Source: Stigmatella ashevillena | Lineage (GTDB): Bacteria > Myxococcota > Myxococcia > Myxococcales > Myxococcaceae | Direction: 5' to 3' | Assembly (NCBI RefSeq): GCF_028368975.1 | Contig: NZ_JAQNDM010000002.1 | Coordinates: 2,676,007 to 2,740,006, forward strand | DNA length: 64,000 bases | Part shown: piece after piece, positions 17,362 to 62,500 of the stretch | Layout: each line of letters begins with the position of its first letter | Numbering within the stretch: the first letter of the stretch is position 1 | The notes under the pieces: model-generated | Seen by the model: the letters and a program-made list of their open reading frames with translations, nothing else | Told to the model about the DNA's origin: nothing | Database searches by the model: none | Translations under genes and position numbers: made by a program

Positions 17362-17423
17362 TCAGAACACGGCCATCAGGACCGGGTAGGCCTAACCCCC
17401 CATCCATCCTTCCTATGCTCCGA
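17362..17423. repeat. 62-bp direct repeat, left copy
   Basis: The 62 bases here match 58 of 62 bases at 21600-21661, in the same orientation; both begin TCAGAACACGGCCATCAGG and end around CCTATGCT. The two copies bracket a 4.2-kb segment holding the small lipoprotein, the crotonase, an alpha/beta hydrolase, the SDR and the AraC-type regulator. This copy lies 180 bases upstream of the divergently read gene ending at 15723. The nature of the repeat is unknown (element end, recombination scar or shared regulatory DNA). Confidence 0.75.
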
Positions 17424-17497
17424 ACGTCCTCCTTGGGGGAGCACGAAACGGCGAAAGGCGTGTGCTGTCGCGCAGAGCAGCGCTGGTGCGCTTCATC

Positions 17498-17752
17498 TCA
17501 TGGACAGACCCACTTGAACATGGACGAGCATCCACAGGCGGTGGCGATGCTCCCCTCGCAGCAGGCCTGCGTCGTGCCCGAAGGCTTGCAGAGACCACCC
17601 TCGAGGGACGCGCAATCCGGGAGTGAGCCGGGGCATACTGCGAGCGAATGGGAGGCCGACGGTTGCTCCTCGGTCTCCGGGGCCCCTGCCGAGGCACCAC
17701 ATCCCGTTGCCAACAAGGTGGCGGCGGCGAACGCTACGAACACGCGCTTCAT
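17498..17752 (-). CDS. Small cysteine-rich lipoprotein
   Basis: 84 residues from the ATG at 17752, chosen because AGGAGAG lies upstream. The lipoprotein signal ends LLATGC (Cys 18). An acidic linker follows, then a short domain with eight cysteines (CPGSLPDC, GGLCKPSG, ACCEGS, CGCSS, WVCP), dense enough for several disulfides. It resembles the layout of the lipoprotein at 15300-15593 but is not clearly homologous. No function can be assigned. It lies just inside the left 62-bp repeat. Confidence 0.6.
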   Translation of the reverse strand: MKRVFVAFAAATLLATGCGASAGAPETEEQPSASHSLAVCPGSLPDCASLEGGLCKPSGTTQACCEGSIATACGCSSMFKWVCP

Positions 17753-17863
17753 GCACTTCTCTCCTGTGATTTGCCAGAGGTGCACCTTATTACCACACCT
17801 GCCAGCATCTAGAGAGTGGGGCGGCGTAGCAACGGTCAGCAGTGACAGCGCGGCGCGCCTGCC

Positions 17864-18694
17864 TCAGCGGGGCTCGTCGACGATGCCGAGGTACTCGCCG
17901 AGCCGAAGCTCGACATCGAGGCCCTTCGCGGCGAAGTGCTTACCGAGCCGCGCAAAGCTCTCCTGAAAGCCAGGCTGCGTCAGCGAGCTCGTGTACTCCC
18001 CATAGGCCGTAGCAAAGTCTGTGTCCGGGGGCAGTGACGCCCGGTTGATCTGGGCCTTGGCTGCCGTCATGACGGCCTTGTTGAACGAAGCCAAGCGGGC
18101 CGCAAGCTGATCCACGAAGCGATCGAGCTCGGCGTCGGGCAAGGTTCGCGTGACCCAGCCGTATCGCTCGGCGAGCTCAGCGTTGTAGTCCTGGCTGGTG
18201 AGGATCGCTTCGAGGGCGCGGTCACGCCCGATGAGGCGTGGCAGGCGTTCGCTGCCACCCCCCCCGGGCAGGATGCCGGTGCCGACCTCCGGCTGTCCGA
18301 AGAGGGCGTGCTCGCGGCTCGCGTAGCGCAGATCGCAGGCCAGGGCGAGCTCGTTGCCGCCTCCGCGGGTGCGTCCACGAATCTTCGCAATGCTCACGAA
18401 GGGAGCTTTCGATAGGCGAATCACCAGGTCGACCCAGGCCGGGACGGACCCTGAGCCCGGCGTGAACGGGAACTTGCCGGCTTGCCGGAGATCGAAGTGG
18501 TTGAAGTAGAAGCCGCTGGTGCTGCTCGTGAAGATGACAACCTGGACTTGATTGTCATTCGAGAGCTCGACGACGATCTCGTGCAGCCGTTTGACCGTCT
18601 CCGGCACGATGACGTTCGCGGCTGGGTTCGCGAAAGTGATGGTTGCGATCTTCGGCGTCGAGCGTTCGACGCTCACGGTGCTTTGCTCGCTCAT
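17864..18694 (-). CDS. Enoyl-CoA hydratase/isomerase family (crotonase) protein
   Basis: 276 residues with the crotonase core. AKIRGRTRGGGNELALACD (~103-121) gives the oxyanion-hole loop and the conserved GG..LA.ACD helix. FGQPEVGTGILPGGGG (~130-146) supplies one catalytic Glu position, followed by RLPRLIGRDRALE. The C-terminal helices are usual for a ~270-residue member. The family acts on acyl-CoA thioesters (hydration, isomerisation, dehalogenation or C-C cleavage) in the cytoplasm; the substrate is not predictable. It is the last gene of a probable three-gene minus-strand operon with the hydrolase (101 bases upstream) and the SDR. Confidence 0.88.
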   Translation of the reverse strand: MSEQSTVSVERSTPKIATITFANPAANVIVPETVKRLHEIVVELSNDNQVQVVIFTSSTSGFYFNHFDLRQAGKFPFTPGSGSVPAWVDLVIRLSKAPFVSIAKIRGRTRGGGNELALACDLRYASREHALFGQPEVGTGILPGGGGSERLPRLIGRDRALEAILTSQDYNAELAERYGWVTRTLPDAELDRFVDQLAARLASFNKAVMTAAKAQINRASLPPDTDFATAYGEYTSSLTQPGFQESFARLGKHFAAKGLDVELRLGEYLGIVDEPR

Positions 18695-18795
18695 GTTACG
18701 CTCCTAAGATTGTCTTGCTCAACGGTCCGGCCAGTGGACTGGCCGCGAAGTCTTTCAACATAATCCTGGATACCGATTATTTCGCGGACAGACCA

Positions 18796-19653
18796 CTAGC
18801 GGCCGAGGAAGCGGTTCACGTCAGCAGCAAACTCTTCTGGATACTGGAACAAGAATGCGTGCCCAGCATCCGGGTAGATTCGCAGCTGCGCATTCGCAAG
18901 ATGCCGGGCCATCAGATAGGAGTTGGCCGTCGGCACCATGATGTCGTTGTCTCCGTTGGCCACCAGCACTGGCTGTTTGATCGCCGCGAGGCGCGAGAGC
19001 TTCGACGCGTCCGGGATACCCCAGGCCGAGATGGCAGTCAGATGCGCGTTGGCGGTCTCCCGGGTCACGGGAACGTCTCGATTGGTCTGCCGCAAGCGAA
19101 GGCGCGCGATGAACTCGCTGCCCTTGGCACGACTCGACTCCGATTTTTCGAAAAAGATGGTTAGCATTGCCTCCGCGTCGATCTTTTCGCGCAGCGCGAT
19201 CTCGAGCACTTCCGGCACGTACATGTGCATGCCCTCGCCGCCTTGGGGGCCCGTTCCGGCGAGGACCAGGCGGCGCACCTGATGGGGCCTCATCAGGGCG
19301 AACTCTTGCGCCACGAAGCCACCGAGCGAGAAGCCCAGAATGTCGACACGCGCCAGATTGAGCGCATCGACGAAGGCGATGGCGCCGTGAGCCATTTCAG
19401 CGACCGTGTCCGGCGTCCTGCCACTCGAGCCCGCGACGCCGACGTTGTCCATTAGGATGATCTCACGCTCTTCGGCGAGCGCGTCGACCAGGGCCGGGTC
19501 CCAGTTGTCTAGATTGGCGCGATAGTGAACGAAGCACACGAGCGGCGCCGCCGAGCCGTCGTTCTTGCCGAACCGCCGGTAGGCGTACCTCACGCCGTTG
19601 GCCGCTTCGAGCGTCAGGTTCGGAGCAGTCAGTTGCCCAGTTTTCATGGTCAT
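18796..19653 (-). CDS. Alpha/beta-hydrolase fold enzyme
   Basis: 285 residues from the ATG at 19653; the longer frame start lacks a ribosome site. The nucleophile elbow is GFSLGG (Ser 109), the acid is in GDNDIMVP (near 230) and the base in DAGHAFLFQYP (near 263). The usual HG oxyanion motif after the first long strand reads FVHYRANLDNWDP, a variant found in a subgroup of epoxide-hydrolase/haloperoxidase-like proteins. It is probably cytoplasmic. It sits between the SDR (86 bases upstream) and the crotonase (101 bases downstream) on one strand, which suggests a shared catabolic or detoxifying pathway. Confidence 0.87.
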   Translation of the reverse strand: MTMKTGQLTAPNLTLEAANGVRYAYRRFGKNDGSAAPLVCFVHYRANLDNWDPALVDALAEEREIILMDNVGVAGSSGRTPDTVAEMAHGAIAFVDALNLARVDILGFSLGGFVAQEFALMRPHQVRRLVLAGTGPQGGEGMHMYVPEVLEIALREKIDAEAMLTIFFEKSESSRAKGSEFIARLRLRQTNRDVPVTRETANAHLTAISAWGIPDASKLSRLAAIKQPVLVANGDNDIMVPTANSYLMARHLANAQLRIYPDAGHAFLFQYPEEFAADVNRFLGR

Positions 19654-19739
19654 GTTTGGTCCTTTCGCTCGCGAGGTCCGGCTGCGCGAGCCGCAGCCCT
19701 TTGCTGCCACGTGGGGAGACGTGGGGCCGGTGGCGCTCT

Positions 19740-20450
19740 TCAGCCAGTCGGTCCCGAAGGCGGGCGGAGATACAGCCCCTGCGACAAGCCGTCTTTCACC
19801 TTCCTTGTGAGCTCGTCGACGAGCACCTCGTCGGAGCCAGCCTCCACACCATCAAGTGCCAGTCGCGCGACTTCCTCCGGCCGCACCTTCGGGACATCGA
19901 GCCCGCGCACCATGTCCGTGTCGATGTAGCCGACGTGCACTGCGGTCACCTGTGTGCCTTGCGGCCCGAGCTCTGCCCGCAGTCCGTTGGTCAGCGCCCA
20001 CGCTGCGGCCTTCGAGGCGCAGTAGGTCGTCGAGCCAGGCGGTGCCACCCAGCTGAGCACCGACAGGACGTTGAGAATCGCGCCGCCGCCGTTCTTCGCG
20101 AGGACGGGGGCGAAGGCCTCACTCACCGCGAGGAGCCCGAAATAATTGGTCTCGAACTCCTCGCGTGCATTCGCGACGATGTCTCCCGCAAGCAGCCTGC
20201 GCGGCCGAAGGATGCCGGCGTTGTTCACAATGAGTGTGACGTCGCCGAGTTCACGAGCCGCGGCCGCGATGGTCTCGGGCTTCGTCACGTCGAGGGCCAC
20301 TGGCACGACGCCGTCGATGGAACTCGGGGTGGGAGTGCGAGTTGCTGCGTAGACCTTCCTGGCGCCGCGATCGACCAGCGCTTTCGCGAGGCTGAGACCG
20401 AGGCCACGGCTGGCGCCTGTGACGAGCGCGACGGACTGCTGAATGTTCAT
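19740..20450 (-). CDS. Short-chain dehydrogenase/reductase
   Basis: About 236 residues. A Rossmann start VALVTGASRGLGLSLA gives the TGxxxGxG cofactor motif, and AATR after the second strand hints at NADP(H) use. NNAG (~84), a catalytic Ser in LSVLSW and YCASK (Tyr/Lys pair near 150) complete the classical SDR active site. The start is either the ATG at 20450 or a GTG six bases upstream, both behind GAAAGG. It is the first gene of the SDR-hydrolase-crotonase set and lies 160 bases from the divergent AraC-type regulator, the usual position for a regulated operon. Confidence 0.88.
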   Translation of the reverse strand: MNIQQSVALVTGASRGLGLSLAKALVDRGARKVYAATRTPTPSSIDGVVPVALDVTKPETIAAAARELGDVTLIVNNAGILRPRRLLAGDIVANAREEFETNYFGLLAVSEAFAPVLAKNGGGAILNVLSVLSWVAPPGSTTYCASKAAAWALTNGLRAELGPQGTQVTAVHVGYIDTDMVRGLDVPKVRPEEVARLALDGVEAGSDEVLVDELTRKVKDGLSQGLYLRPPSGPTG

Positions 20451-20610
20451 GACCACCTTTCAGTCCAGGCGGACGCCGACGGGGCCTCGGGTTGGAGCCA
20501 CTCGCTGGGACCGCCGGGACGGGCACGCTGGAAACCACGCCTTCAACATCGCAGCGGCGCGGAGTTCGAGCCAGTGGCAGAATCGACAATGTTCGGTCTA
20601 TGCTTGCCAT

Positions 20611-21597
20611 GTGTTCGTGCACCTGCTGCTGGAAGGCGTTGCTGACAGCTCGCTCGGCGTGGCGCTCGACGTCGTCAGCACGGCGTCGTTCCTCGCGGAG
20701 GCTGGGCTGGCCCCGTTACCTCGAGGAACGAAGGCGCTGCTCCAGCGCGTGGTGTCACTCGACGGCCAGCCGGTGCGTTCCTCTGCCGGGCGCACCATCG
20801 CCGTGGAAGGTGCGTTCAGCCTTCGCGGCCTCCGCAAGGGCGATGTCGTCATCTTGCCCGGGATGTTCTCCGCCAGCGGGCGAACCGTCGGGCAGTTGCT
20901 GGCGCGCGAGGACGCTCGACGTGCCGCAGGCCTCCTCCCGGAGGCCGCCGCCAAGGGCGTGATGCTCGCCGCGTCGTGCTCGGCCACGTTCGTGCTCGCC
21001 GCGTCCGGCCTCCTCGATGGACTGCCCGCGACGACGACGTGGTGGCTCGTACCGGAGTTCGCGCAGCGATTCCCCCGGGTGTCGCTCTCGGCCGACCGCA
21101 TGGTGGTCGACGCCGGGGACATCCTTACCGCAGGCTCCGCGCTGGCCCACGCCGATCTCATGCTCGCGATCGTCGCGCGGCGGCTAGGACCTTCCGTGGC
21201 GCATCTCGTGGCGCGCTACCTCGTGCTCGACGAGCGGCCGTCCCAGGCGCGCTACATGGTCGCGGAGCATCTGCGTGTGTCCGACCCCGCGCTGCAAGCG
21301 GTCGAACGCTTCATCCTCCAGAACGTCGGCCGTCAGCTGTCACTCGACGAACTCTCCCGCGTGGCCGCGCTGTCTCCACGCACGCTCGCCCGCCGAGTCC
21401 ACGCCAGTCTCGGAATGACGCCGCACGAGTTCGTACAGCGCATCCGCGTGAGCAGGGCCGTCCATCTCCTCGAGACGACGCGCGTCTCGGTCGAGGACAT
21501 CGCCGCACGGGTAGGCTACGCGGACGCGGCGGCCTTCCGCCGTATCTTTCGCCGCTTCACGGGGGAGTCTCCTCGGCGCCGACGTGCGCCGGCTTGA
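20611..21597 (+). CDS. GlxA-type AraC-family transcriptional regulator
   Basis: About 328 residues from a GTG at 20611 (VFVHLLLEGVADSSLGVALD matches the usual start of the family's DJ-1/PfpI-like domain). Residues ~1-190 are the glutamine-amidotransferase-like sensor domain, with the Cys-elbow region MLAASCSATFVLA. Residues ~225-328 form an AraC DNA-binding domain with two helix-turn-helices, including LDELSRVAALSPRTLARRV and VSVEDIAARVGYADAAAFRR. It is read away from the SDR-hydrolase-crotonase operon across a 160-base gap, so it is the likely regulator of that operon. The inducer is unknown. The 62-bp repeat begins two bases after its stop codon. Confidence 0.88.
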   Translation: MFVHLLLEGVADSSLGVALDVVSTASFLAEAGLAPLPRGTKALLQRVVSLDGQPVRSSAGRTIAVEGAFSLRGLRKGDVVILPGMFSASGRTVGQLLAREDARRAAGLLPEAAAKGVMLAASCSATFVLAASGLLDGLPATTTWWLVPEFAQRFPRVSLSADRMVVDAGDILTAGSALAHADLMLAIVARRLGPSVAHLVARYLVLDERPSQARYMVAEHLRVSDPALQAVERFILQNVGRQLSLDELSRVAALSPRTLARRVHASLGMTPHEFVQRIRVSRAVHLLETTRVSVEDIAARVGYADAAAFRRIFRRFTGESPRRRRAPA

Positions 21598-21599
21598 TT

Positions 21600-21661
21600 T
21601 CAGAACACGGCCATCAGGACCGGGGAGGCTTAACACCCCATCCATCCTTCCTATGCTCTGA
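21600..21661. repeat. 62-bp direct repeat, right copy
   Basis: Partner of 17362-17423, with four mismatches in 62 bases and the same orientation. It begins immediately after the stop of the AraC-type regulator and abuts the decayed sulfatase. Together the pair delimits a self-contained regulator-plus-operon segment. Confidence 0.75.
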
Positions 21662-21734
21662 TATTGCAGCGGGGAAGGCTTGGCTGGGGTACCACGCCTG
21701 CCACGCCCACATGACCCTGCCCCCTCAAACATCT

Positions 21735-22302
21735 CTCCACTCACCGGCGAGGAGCCACCTGGGGCCAGGGAGTCAGCTTCTCCTTCTCGTAGCGCTCGAG
21801 CAGCGCGCCCAGCCTCGTGGCCTTCTCCTTGACGTCGGGCTATCGCGGCAAAAGACACCACCGCCATCCAGGGCGCCTGCTCGGCGGGAGGGGCTGGCTG
21901 GCGGGGGGCATTCTCGGAGGCGTTGGCGCTGGAGCGGTCCACCTCGATGGCCAGCGCCTTACGGCGCAGAAAAGTGCAGGCGAGATCAGCGCAGCCGAAG
22001 TCCCGGTAGAACGCCAGGTTATTGGGGCTGGCGCCGTGCGGCTCGGGGTAGCTCAGCTCCCAGTCATCGAAGCCGTAGCGGGTGAGCGAATGCTCCGGCG
22101 GATTCGAGACGTGCCACTTGCCGAAGTAGTGCGTGCGGAAGCCCGCCGCGCGGAACCAGTGGCACAGGGTGGGAATGCCGTCCGGCTTCAACCAGGGGAA
22201 GGCGGCCGCATCGCCACTCTTGAAGACCCCATCCGTCTGGGTGACCCCCGTCATGATGACCAGGAGGTTGCGAGGAGGAGACGGAGGCTTGGATCGGGAC
22301 AT
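21735..22302 (-). pseudogene. Sulfatase remnant
   Basis: From the ATG at 22302 the frame begins like a sulfatase of the alkaline phosphatase superfamily (RNLLVIMTGVTQTDG, then LCHWFRAAGFRTHYFGKWHVS). The segment that should hold the metal-binding acids and the CxPxR formylglycine motif is deleted, since GVTQTDGVFKSGD runs straight into later sequence. Further on are scraps such as PWMAVVSFA out of register, and then the homology ends. With no nucleophile and no C-terminal domain it cannot be a working sulfatase. The break lies next to the right 62-bp repeat, which suggests that rearrangement there destroyed the gene. Confidence 0.65.
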
Positions 22303-22425
22303 GCTTCGGAGACTCCCGCGAGAAGCAGCGTGAAAAACCGATGCCTGAGATGGGCATGAGCGCATGCCCCAAGAGTCATTGCGCCAGGGCGCGAAACACC
22401 CTGGCTGTCCCCGTCGTCAGAGCGG

Positions 22426-23901: not shown

Positions 23902-24125
23902 GGCGGCCCTCTAGCTTGCCAACTCCCCCGCATCAACGATCTGTGGCGGCCTCTTTCCTGCTGCCGACACTGGGGCGAGGCGGCGGGAGTCGAAACCGCA
24001 GCCCGGCTCCGTCCCCCGCTCCGTCCCGTCTCGACCTCTTCTTATCCCCGCTGGAGGGGCACACTGGGGCACATGCAGCCCAACAGGGTCACTCAGCGCC
24101 CACCGGTCGCGACGAGGGCAGTCTT

Positions 24126-31363: not shown

Positions 31364-31430
31364 CTTGCTACAGTCTCCCGGAAAGCTGAGTCCTTTCCGG
31401 AAGATATGGAGTGGAGGCGGCGGGAATCGA
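31364..31430 (-). repeat. Duplicated ssrA 3' end and flank, att-like site (distal copy)
   Basis: 67 bases matching 34002-34068 with three mismatches. The last 18-20 bases are the 3' end of tmRNA (T-arm and acceptor sequence, GGAGGCGGCGGGAATCGA on the plus strand); the rest is the tmRNA 3' flank with CTTGCTACAGTCTCCCGG. Integrative elements that target tRNA or tmRNA genes leave exactly such a duplicate of the gene's 3' end at their far boundary. Weaker similarity continues outward for another ~120 bases past the terminator. Confidence 0.75.
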
Positions 31431-32192: not shown

Positions 32193-32376
32193 GTAACCGT
32201 TCACGGGGTACGGCCCACCGCACCACTGCATCTTGTGCTCGAAGGGCAGGCAAGCGCGACAGGCAGGACAAGGTTTGGACGCAAGGCACTCAAATTGGTT
32301 TTTCCTGAATGCGTATGGCATCTAACCGGCTGGAAGAATTGGGCTTTTTGCCCCCCTCCAGCCCGTGAACGGTTAC
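32193..32376. mobile_element. 184-bp MITE, copy A
   Basis: Perfect 15-bp terminal inverted repeats (GTAACCGTTCACGGG / CCCGTGAACGGTTAC) flank 154 internal bases. An 8-bp target duplication CTCAATCC lies directly outside at 32185-32192 and 32377-32384. It encodes no transposase. The GTAA terminus together with an 8-bp duplication is what IS66-family elements show, so an IS66-type enzyme probably mobilises it. It sits between the toxin-like stop codon (inside the target duplication) and the immunity-like start. It appears identical in sequence to copy B in inverted orientation. Confidence 0.9.
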
Positions 32377-32377
32377 C

Positions 32378-33492
32378 TCAATCCTTCCATGTCTTGGTGT
32401 CAACCACACTGGGCTTGTCGCCATATTCATAAATAATGCGTTTAGATGGATCCAGTTTGTCGATGTAGATGAGCCTGTCTTCTTCCTTCAAGCCGTCCAG
32501 TTCGATCTTGAGCTTCTCACGCAGCCGCTTGATGGGAGTGCCTTTCTTGAGCATTGCATCCACCTCCACGTAATCTACGCCGCCCTTTTCATTGGGCTTG
32601 ATGAGGTCGACGTATTTGTCATTCAGCACAGTGGTTTCAGTATTCTGGAAGCCCTCATTCTGCTCAAGGAACTGACGGGTTTTGACTTGGTTTCCTCCCC
32701 CGCTGCGTCCTGGGCGGCCCCCCTCGGCGGCAGCCTTGTAATGACGTCTCTTGTAGGTCTCGAAGTCGAGGAGATCCTCTTGTTTCCAAGGTAACCGTTC
32801 ACGGGCTGGAGGGGGGCAAAAAGCCCAATTCTTCCAGCCGGTTAGATGCCATACGCATTCAGGAAAAACCAATTTGAGTGCCTTGCGTCCAAACCTTGTC
32901 CTGCCTGTCGCGCTTGCCTGCCCTTCGAGCACAAGATGCAGTGGTGCGGTGGGCCGTACCCCGTGAACGGTTACTTGTTTCCTTCCTTTCTTGAACTGTT
33001 GATGGCGGTAACGCTCGTAGCGCCACTCAGCAGCTCCCTTCGTCCCCAGCTTGGGTTTCTTTCCCTCGGGAGCTTTGGGCGGCCAACCGGGCACCTCTTC
33101 AGCCGGTTTCGGCCGAGCCTCCTCCGTGCCGCCTGTCTCGGACTTCTCCTTTTTTTCCCGGACTCCAGGTTCTCACGAGGAGACTTGCCTTTACCGGCGG
33201 CCGTCACTCGCTCTCGAAGCCATGAACCGAGCCGACTCTCGCCGAAGGCTCTCTCCACCGCAGTGCCCTTGAGCGCCTTGAGCGCGGCCTGGACTCCCTT
33301 GGCCGACGCCCACATGACGAGCGCTTCGACCAGCACGCCAGCCAGGACGCCAATCGCCTCGGCCAGTTCGCGTGCCGCGTGCTCGAGCTTTTTGGAGTTG
33401 CCGCGGGCGTTCCACACGCTGCTGAAAAAGGTGGCGAAGGCCGACCCGATGCGAACGACAGCGTCCGCGGCCCAGGTAACGAGGAAGGCCAA
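32378..33492 (-). pseudogene. Polymorphic-toxin-like gene, truncated, frameshifted and MITE-interrupted
   Basis: The 5' part (33492 to ~33160) encodes a small-residue-rich helical segment (WAADAVVRIGSAFATFF and following) like the linker of a polymorphic toxin; the N-terminal delivery part is absent. At an A7 run near 33151-33158 the frame must change: ENLESGK is continued by KEKSETGGTEEARPKPAEE in another frame. The C-terminal domain contains EWRYERYRHQQFKKGRK, LLDFETYKRRHY, KYVDLIKPNEKGGVDYVEV and EDRLIYIDKLDPSKRIIYEY, which recalls toxin nuclease domains common in myxobacteria. Copy B of the MITE splits it after GRKQ and, with its duplication, adds 195 bases (65 codons) without a stop. Toxin function is inferred, not shown. 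Confidence 0.55.
32791..32974. mobile_element. 184-bp MITE, copy B (inverted)
   Basis: Same length and, by eye, same sequence as copy A in opposite orientation, with the same 15-bp inverted ends. The flanks repeat TTGTTTCC at 32780-32787 and 32975-32982, with three extra bases (AAG) between the left repeat and the element. It lies inside the toxin-like reading frame and is readable through in that frame. The lack of divergence between copies points to recent transposition. Confidence 0.9.
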
Positions 33493-33732: not shown

Positions 33733-33970
33733 AGAGGACATGGGCTCCTCGCCACCATCCAAGAATTCGGAAGTTCCGGCAGCCCGTCAGGAAACACAGG
33801 ACGAGCATCCCAGAGGGCATTCTTCCGACTGCGCCGGACGATGATCCCCCTGGCCCGCCCGGACTCTGCACCCACACGCCGCGCAAGAGCGGCAGCGCCA
33901 TGCGCAAGAGCCAGCGCCACGAGCGCCGCCAGCTCGTCCGGCTGTCCCTCGCGGCCTCGACCGCAAAAGA

Positions 33971-34004
33971 AAGCCCCGAAGCACCTGATGGTGCCCGGGG
34001 CCTT
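33971..34004 (-). terminator. Intrinsic terminator of ssrA
   Basis: Read on the minus strand, GGCCCCGGGCACC pairs with GGTGCTTCGGGGC (small bulges) around ATCA, followed by TTTCTTTTGC. It lies 46 bases past the mature tmRNA 3' end, a normal place for the ssrA terminator. Confidence 0.75.
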
Positions 34005-34068
34005 GCTACAGTCTCCCGGAAAGCTGAGTCCTTTCCGGGAGATGCGGAGTGGAGGCGGCGGGAATCGA
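34002..34068 (-). repeat. ssrA 3' end and flank, att-like site (gene-proximal copy)
   Basis: Partner of 31364-31430 (64 of 67 bases identical). It spans the last bases of the genuine tmRNA gene and about 48 bases of 3' flank, and marks the gene-proximal boundary of the 2.6-kb segment that holds the toxin/immunity remnants and the MITEs. Confidence 0.75.
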
Positions 34069-34410
34069 ACCCGCGTCCGAAAGCCTTCCGTCCTTCGACC
34101 CTACGTGCGTAGTCCGCGCTTTGCTACGTCCCGAAGGCTCCCACGGACGGGATCCTCCGAGCCGATCCTGGAAAAGTCTCGCCACCTCGGTCCCAGGAAC
34201 CCTCGGCAGCCAGCCCGCATTCTGACGGTCCTACCCCACCCCACAGGCCGAGAGCGGGAGGACCGCGCGCTAAAAGCTGTTGTTAGGCAGCCAGCGCGAG
34301 CTCAACGTTGTCGTTGGCTTTTGTGTCTTTGCCATCGGTTTTTACGAGCCATTGGCCCACTCGGCACGCGTCTCGGACTTCTATGCCCCCGTCGAAACCA
34401 GGTCGCCCCC
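34050..34410 (-). ncRNA. ssrA: Transfer-messenger RNA (tmRNA)
   Basis: About 361 nt before CCA addition. The 5' end GGGGGCGACCTGGTTTCGACG carries the conserved D-loop-like start of tmRNA. The 3' end has the T-arm GGGTTCGATTCCCG and an acceptor strand CGCCTCC plus discriminator A; its seven bases pair with the 5' GGGGGCG (one G-U). CCA is not encoded. The tag reading frame at 34283-34318 gives ANDNVELALAA followed by TAA, a normal proteolysis tag ending in LAA. The molecule rescues stalled ribosomes with SmpB. It is intact, and its 3' flank has served as an integration target. Confidence 0.97.
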
Positions 34411-59503: not shown

Positions 59504-62500
59504 TTACGTCAGACTCTGGCGAGTCTCCTCGATCTCGTACGCCTCGATGATGTCGCCGGCCTTGAGATCATTGAAGTTCTCGATGCCGATACCGCACTCG
59601 AAGCCCTGGGCGACTTCCTTCACGTCGTCCTTGAACCGCCGCAGGGACGCCATCTTCCCGGCGAACAGCTGCTTGTTCTCGCGCATGAGCCGGACGAAGG
59701 CGCCGCGCTTGATGACGCCATCGAGCACCGCCGCACCGGCGATGGTGCCCAGCTTCGGCACGTTGAACGTGTTGCGGACCTCGGCACGGCCCAGCTTCCG
59801 CTCGGTGCGGATGGGCTCCAGGAGCTCTTCCATGGACGAGCGCACCCCATCGATGAGCTCGTAGATGATGCTGAAGCTGCGCAGCAGCACGCCCTCGGCC
59901 TTGGCGGCGGACTCCGCGCCCGACTCCGGCTTGACGTTGAAACCCAGCACCACGCCCTTCGAGGCGGCCGCACGCATGACGTCCGACTCGGTGATGGCGC
60001 CCACGCCGGTGTCGATGACCTCCACCTTGACCTTGTGGGTGGTCAGCTTCTGGACGGCCTGCTTGACGGCCTCGGCCGAGCCCTGCACGTCCGCCTTGAT
60101 GACGACGCGCAGCTCCTTCGGGCCACCGCCCGCCTTGGTCTTGGCGAAGAGCTGATCCAGCGTCTCGCGGCTGACCTTGCTGAGCTCTGTCTGGCGCTCC
60201 TTCATGCCGCGGTGCTCGGCGATCTGCTTGGCCGCCTTCTCGTCCGCCACCACGTTGATGGTGTCGCCCGCGCTGGGCACGCCGGACAGGCCGATGACCT
60301 CGGCGCAGTAGCCGGGGAGCACTTCCTTCACCGATTCGCCGCGGCTGTTGTTCATGGCGCGCACGCGGCCGTAGTCCGTGCCGGTGACGACGGCATCGCC
60401 GACCCGCAGCGTGCCCTCCTGCACGAGCACGGTGGCCACGGGGCCCCGGCCGCGATCCAACTTGGCCTCGATGATGGCGCCCACCGCCGGACGGCTGGGG
60501 TTGGACGTCAGCTCGAGCACTTCCGCCTGGAGGACGACGTTCTCCAGCAGCAGGTCGATGCCCATCTTCTGCTTGGCGGAGACGGGAACCATGATGGTCT
60601 CACCGCCCCACTCTTCGGGCACCAGCTCGTGGTTGGCCAGGTCCTTCTTCACGCGGTCCGGGTTGGCGCCCGGCACGTCCATCTTGTTGAGGGCCACGAC
60701 AATGGGCACCTCGGCGGCCTTCGCGTGCTTGATGGCCTCGATCGTCTGAGGCATCACGCCGTCGTCGGCGGCCACGACCAGGATGACGATGTCCGTCACG
60801 TTGGCGCCACGGGCGCGCATGGACGTGAAGGCCTCGTGACCCGGCGTGTCCAGGAAGGTGATGTCTCCCCGGGCCGTGGTGACGCTGTAGGCACCGATGT
60901 GCTGGGTGATGCCGCCGGCCTCACCCGAGGCCACGTTGGCCGCGCGGATGGCGTCCAGCAAGCTCGTCTTGCCGTGGTCGACGTGGCCCATGACGGTGAC
61001 CACCGGCGGACGCGTGCGCGCGTCCTCGGGACGGGCCACCACCTCGGGCAGGTAGTCCTCCACCTCGAAGCCGACCCGGTCCACCTTCCAGCCGTAGTCG
61101 CTGGCGATGAGCTCCACGGTGTCCGCCTCGACCATCTGGTTGGCGGTCGCCATCTTCCCCAGGCCCATCAGCTTCTTGATGATGTCCGAGGTGCGCACAC
61201 CCATGCGCTGACCCAGGTCGGACACGCTGATGCCCTCCTGGAGCTTGATGACCTTCTTGTCCTCGGCCATCTGGGTGATCTGCGTCTTGGCGCCCTTCTT
61301 CGTGGGCTTCTTCTTCTTGCCACGAAGGGGGATGTTGACGCGGCCCCAGGCCAGGTCCGTCAGCTCCTGCTTGGAGATGGAGGTGTCGTTCGGACCGCCC
61401 CTCTTGCGCGGCGACTTGTCCTTGTTCTTGGAGACGTCGACGAGCTCACGGCCGCGGCCCGCGTGATCCGGGACGACCTTGAACTCGCGAACCTCGCCAA
61501 TGGCCTTCTTGCCAGGCGCCATCGGGTACTGCTTGGCCGAGGACGTGGTCGGCGTGACCCGGCGCACCTGGATGAGCGGACGCGAGATGACGACGGCCTG
61601 GGTGGCCGTGGGGCGCAGCGCGCGAGCGTCCGGAGCGGAGGGAGCGTGCGGGATGCCGCCCACCATGGTGACGTTCTGCGGCTGGCCAGACGCCTGGGCG
61701 CCGGGCGCGGACGGAGCCCCGGGCGCCGTCGAGACCGTGGGACGCACGGGGCCCGAACCACCGGGACGGCCGCTGTACGGCGGTCCTCCCGGACGCTGCC
61801 CTGGTCCTCCCGGACGTCCGCCGTGCGAGGGTCCACCCGGACGGCCCCCCGGTCCAGTAGGGCGGCCTCCCTGATGGCCACCTGGACGGCCAGACATGCC
61901 GCCTCCCGGAGGAGGACGGGAAATCACAGTCGCCTGTGTTCCGGGCGTCCGGACAGAGGGCGGCACTGGATTGCGCGGAGGAGTTGAGGGCAAGTGGGTC
62001 CTTTCCTGAGCAGGGTTACGGGGCTGCGCCGCGGCAGGAGGCTGCACGGCGGCCGGAGGCGTCACCGGAACTTCGGTGCGCACAGGGGGAGTCGGTGCCT
62101 GGGCGGCAGGCTCCGTGGCAACCGGAGCAGCCGCCTTCGGCGCCTCGGTGGCAGGCTCCGTGGCAACCGGAGCAGCCGCCTTCGGCGCCTCGGTGGCAGG
62201 CTCCGTGGCAACCGGAGCAGCCGCCTTCGGCGCCTCGGTGGCAGGCTCCGTGGCAACTGGAGCAGCCGCCCTCGGAACCTCGGCAACGGGCTCCGGCGCA
62301 GAGGCCACCTCGGGGACATACTCCGGCGCGGGCGACTCGGTACCCTGCGCCTCATGAGCGGGCTCGGACGGCGGAGAGGACACATCCGAGGCAGCCTGCT
62401 GCGGCTCCTGGGAAGCGTCATAGACGCCTGAACCCGTGGGTGGGCCGACCTTGCGGCGCACCACGAAGCCCTTGGCCGTGACGGGCGCGGCGGCCTGCTT

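Follow-up and report, generated by a model that had tools for sequence, protein, structure and literature searches.

A four-gene operon in Stigmatella ashevillena, encoding a crotonase, an alpha/beta hydrolase, an SDR oxidoreductase and a divergent AraC regulator, is an ordinary accessory cluster within variable DNA next to the tmRNA gene ssrA, and not a cassette known to be moved by the 62-bp direct repeats on either side of it. A transferable operon in an ssrA hotspot is supported by the comparisons reported here, whereas the repeats are not supported as the cause or the means of its movement. The initial annotation had read the segment as a repeat-bracketed cassette. Its discrete four-gene unit was indeed found in varied neighbourhoods, but the causal role that it gave to the repeats was not supported, since the unit occurs elsewhere without them. 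Positions refer to the window, the whole 64,000-nucleotide stretch of DNA that was analysed, which includes the following features.

17362–17423, plus strand: 62-bp repeat, copy 1; end-to-end hairpin in the minus-strand reading
17498–17785, minus strand: lipoprotein-like ORF of 95 amino acids, between copy 1 and the operon; no Pfam family
17845–21598: four-gene accessory unit, common to Hyalangium and other Myxococcota in different neighbourhoods
17864–18694, minus strand: crotonase (enoyl-CoA hydratase/isomerase family, PF00378)
18738–18795: insert relative to the Hyalangium copy; MITE-like, made up of both tips of an IS element (inverted ends flanked by TA) without its interior
18796–19710, minus strand: alpha/beta hydrolase (PF00561); first codons uncertain, conserved part from near 19672
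19740–20456, minus strand: SDR oxidoreductase (PF00106)
20443–21597, plus strand: divergent AraC regulator with a DJ-1/PfpI domain (PF12833 and PF01965)
20461–20548: 88-bp insert in the divergent promoter region between the SDR and the regulator
21600–21661, plus strand: 62-bp repeat, copy 2; first base 2 bases past the regulator stop codon (21595–21597)
21662–22365, minus strand: decayed sulfatase remnant, adjoining copy 2
31364–31430, plus strand: 67-bp duplicate of the ssrA 3' end and the sequence next to it, repeating 34002–34068 with 3 mismatches
34049–34410, minus strand: tmRNA gene ssrA, whose exact 3' end marks the start of the conserved core

The operon and its immediate neighbours

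The Pfam assignments confirmed the crotonase, hydrolase, SDR and AraC regulator that had been described between the repeats. The curated regulator models nearest to the AraC protein were FtrA and GbdR, with scores far below their cut-offs. The annotated start of the regulator is probably too early, with conservation beginning at about 20549. The lipoprotein, which had been counted as part of the module, does lie inside the repeat pair, but it falls outside the unit shared with relatives. On the right, copy 2 begins just beyond the regulator stop, as had been stated, and the adjoining gene had rightly been called a destroyed sulfatase: its alignment to an intact 718-amino-acid sulfatase of a genus member covers only about 136 residues, with 63% identity.

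In its divergent regulator, three enzymes, intact frames and patchy distribution, the operon resembles laterally spread catabolic operons with a GlxA/FtrA-type AraC regulator. It departs from them in its regulator, given the low FtrA and GbdR scores.

The operon in other genomes

Hyalangium versicolor (G006) carries the same four genes at 92–95% DNA identity, and the aligned stretch is limited to 17845–21598. There the operon is set between unrelated genes, immediately after the stop codon of another gene, and has neither the repeat nor the lipoprotein; a relative of the lipoprotein lies on another Hyalangium contig, apart from the operon. Five further Myxococcaceae genomes carry the unit at 76–90% DNA identity by segment, three of them with a partial alignment of the SDR or no SDR match, and it is also present in Minicystis rosea (71–84% amino acid identity). 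Among seven other Myxococcota loci, most pairwise comparisons of the flanks revealed no common DNA, and the larger exceptions were pairs within one genus. Conservation of the cassette in place across the family, which would have spoken against a mobile unit, is therefore not observed: the surroundings differ by species. For the three genes measured between the window and Hyalangium, dS (0.15–0.18) is far above dN (0.02–0.04), and the operon genes are thus under purifying selection.

Small insertions are common in the operon. An approximately 1.1-kb form of the IS element whose tips make up 18738–18795 is present in Hyalangium, and from our own reading of its transposase it looks IS630-like. 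The 88-bp insert at 20461–20548 is missing in all five relatives whose promoter region aligns, Hyalangium and four that are more distant; it is thus a true insertion, which may affect regulation. A further extra stretch relative to Hyalangium, at 19673–19739, could reflect gain or loss in either direction.

A mosaic region beside ssrA

The collinear core starts at 34048–34049 in G001–G004 and at 33911 in G006. On the left, collinearity with the genus member G002, a complete genome, ends at about −6486. The variable region between these limits measures 40.5 kb here versus 44.3 kb in G002, with different contents, and the genes at 1–27 kb each match G002 at scattered chromosomal places, with up to 96% identity. 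The whole 40-kb interval, which reaches from about −6.5 kb to position 34048, is a mosaic hotspot, an ordinary variable region. Since the DNA tens of kilobases around is equally mosaic, the repeats cannot be taken as the borders of a single insertion into otherwise stable DNA.

The 67-bp duplicate of the ssrA 3' end is what an old integration at ssrA would leave, and 31364–31430 is probably a former att site. The DNA that it bounds is only 2.6 kb long and does not include the operon. No match to the tyrosine recombinase family PF00589 was found at genome positions 2669521–2710054, which span the whole variable region. Islands linked to ssrA are well known, for example the vcrABC islands of Dehalococcoides (PMC3146451). 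The present region resembles these in its variable catabolic genes at the tmRNA 3' end and its duplicated ssrA end, and differs from them in that no integrase gene is left and the 62-bp pair is not an ssrA repeat.

Other repeats were observed in the window. A perfect 186-bp inverted pair lies at 32193–32378 and 32789–32974; the sequence that each copy interrupts runs unbroken in G002 (8512181–8513626), with 7–8 bp overlaps that suggest target duplications, and the comparison suggests that the pair is MITE-like and recent. A sequence of about 100 bp at 24002–24099 has many copies in each of the seven genus genomes, several of them near tRNA 3' ends, and here adjoins a tRNA-3'-end-like stretch at 23977–23999. 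At 62092–62295, two overlapping 114-bp tandem copies are 90% identical.

The 62-bp repeat pair

The two repeats are identical at 58 of 62 positions and lie in the same orientation, 4238 bp apart from start to start, as the initial annotation had reported. Identity drops abruptly to background beyond either edge of both copies. A 24-base piece of the repeat, with up to 3 mismatches allowed, was found twice, versus 0.00 times expected in shuffled windows. The search for further copies that had been proposed returned exactly two in 10.95 Mb (two contigs), and the remaining genome matches were pieces of only 15–22 bp. The unit is thus not dispersed at many loci, an outcome that would have told against the cassette reading, and a dispersed repeat family is ruled out. 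No copy was found in 6 other genomes of the genus, 95 of the family and 194 of the phylum Myxococcota, and no match among plasmids or viral contigs. A covariance model built from both copies was run over 1.1 Mb of sequence from this genome and its relatives and detected no further, diverged copy (best other E value 0.29). No target-site duplication was seen when the flanks of both copies were compared, and no parent element was found.

When the minus strand was folded, both copies formed a hairpin from end to end, at −27.0 and −26.2 kcal/mol (z −2.45 and −2.71). The overall fold energy is unremarkable for this GC-rich genome, where 13% of windows reach −26, whereas across 184 kb of the genome pairing of the nine terminal bases on each side, with G-U allowed, is seen in 0.05% of 62-bp windows. 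At its very ends copy 2 has the terminal inverted repeats TCAGA...TCTGA. Of the four differences between the copies, three are in the apical loop; the other converts an A-U pair into G-U, so that pairing is kept. With longer flanks, alternative folds are possible for copy 2, and the hairpin structure is accordingly to be read as suggestive only. The agreement of the repeat ends with the predicted hairpin ends speaks more for a discrete small element than for an arbitrary run of homology, and a self-contained hairpin unit suits such an element at least as well as it suits a recombination scar. Like MITEs and REP-type hairpin repeats, the unit is short, non-coding and intergenic, with complementary ends; unlike them, it has only two copies, imperfect ends, no target-site duplication and no parent element that we could find. 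The 62-bp repeats are without demonstrated function.

Several known classes did not account for the unit. Neither copy is followed by a 3' T-run and a terminator scan found none there, which excludes a terminator; Rfam matches in the window were limited to tmRNA. Retron msd-like repeats have reportedly been described for Nannocystis, and such a repeat would require a third copy in a retron, which the genome does not have. On the minus strand of the repeat, AGGAAGG ATG is a candidate coding start.

Origin of the arrangement

The explanation that we consider probable, if well short of certain, is that a spread operon settled in the ssrA hotspot and that the repeat pair is a small element that does not move the operon. 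A laterally spread crotonase, hydrolase, SDR and GlxA-type AraC operon would have come to rest in the 40-kb ssrA region of a myxobacterium of the Hyalangium/Stigmatella group. The region itself may have grown through one integration after another at ssrA, with the integrases decaying later. The 62-bp pair would most likely be a small hairpin-forming intergenic element present twice, whose second copy may come from another insertion or from local copying. Three observations count against this explanation. A two-copy element with both copies bracketing one operon is a coincidence, which integration or excision would explain more directly; copy 2 lies within two bases of the conserved end of the operon; and neither a target-site duplication nor diverged further copies in the 1.1 Mb were found.

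Alternatively, the 4.2-kb segment, comprising the lipoprotein and the operon, may have come in as a circle or through recombination at a single 62-bp site, with one copy left on each side, and recombination between the copies could remove it again. The pair is unique and directly oriented, copy 2 stands right at the operon end, and the DNA to the right of it is the older sulfatase region, with a partial G002 counterpart from 21666. Excision via recombination between the repeats would be possible. However, the proposed synteny check yielded no empty, single-repeat site in the genus, and no relative carries any copy of the repeat. The operon moves without repeats, the left edge of its conserved unit stops 421 bp inside copy 1, and a tyrosine recombinase gene is lacking in the segment as in the 40-kb region. 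Moreover, the longest unbroken identity between the copies, 25 bp, would be short for efficient homologous recombination. We regard entry at a 62-bp site as a possibility with perhaps a modest chance of being correct.

One 62-bp copy could also have arisen without any mobile element, through accidental local copying of intergenic DNA (by template switching or gene conversion, for instance). The presence of only two copies, their 6.5% divergence and the missing target-site duplication are all consistent with such an accident, but the copied stretch ends exactly where the rare nine-pair terminal stem ends, and we judge this origin improbable. It is more doubtful still, and in our view very improbable, that the 62-bp hairpin serves as the recognition site for a recombinase acting in trans, by which cassettes the size of an operon are inserted into the hotspot or excised from it. 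An integron-type attC site is largely excluded by sequence and hardly worth entertaining: the unit has a suitable length (about 60 bp), an imperfect one-strand end-to-end hairpin and a position just past a stop codon, but its ends do not match the core consensus RYYYAAC/GTTRRRY, there is no tyrosine recombinase in the region, and only two copies exist.

Implications

The analysis documents a hypervariable region adjacent to ssrA in a myxobacterium, where genes with 90–96% identity to their counterparts in sister species are placed differently, and it identifies a compact four-gene operon travelling between Myxococcota lineages. The region and the operon are both of already known kinds.
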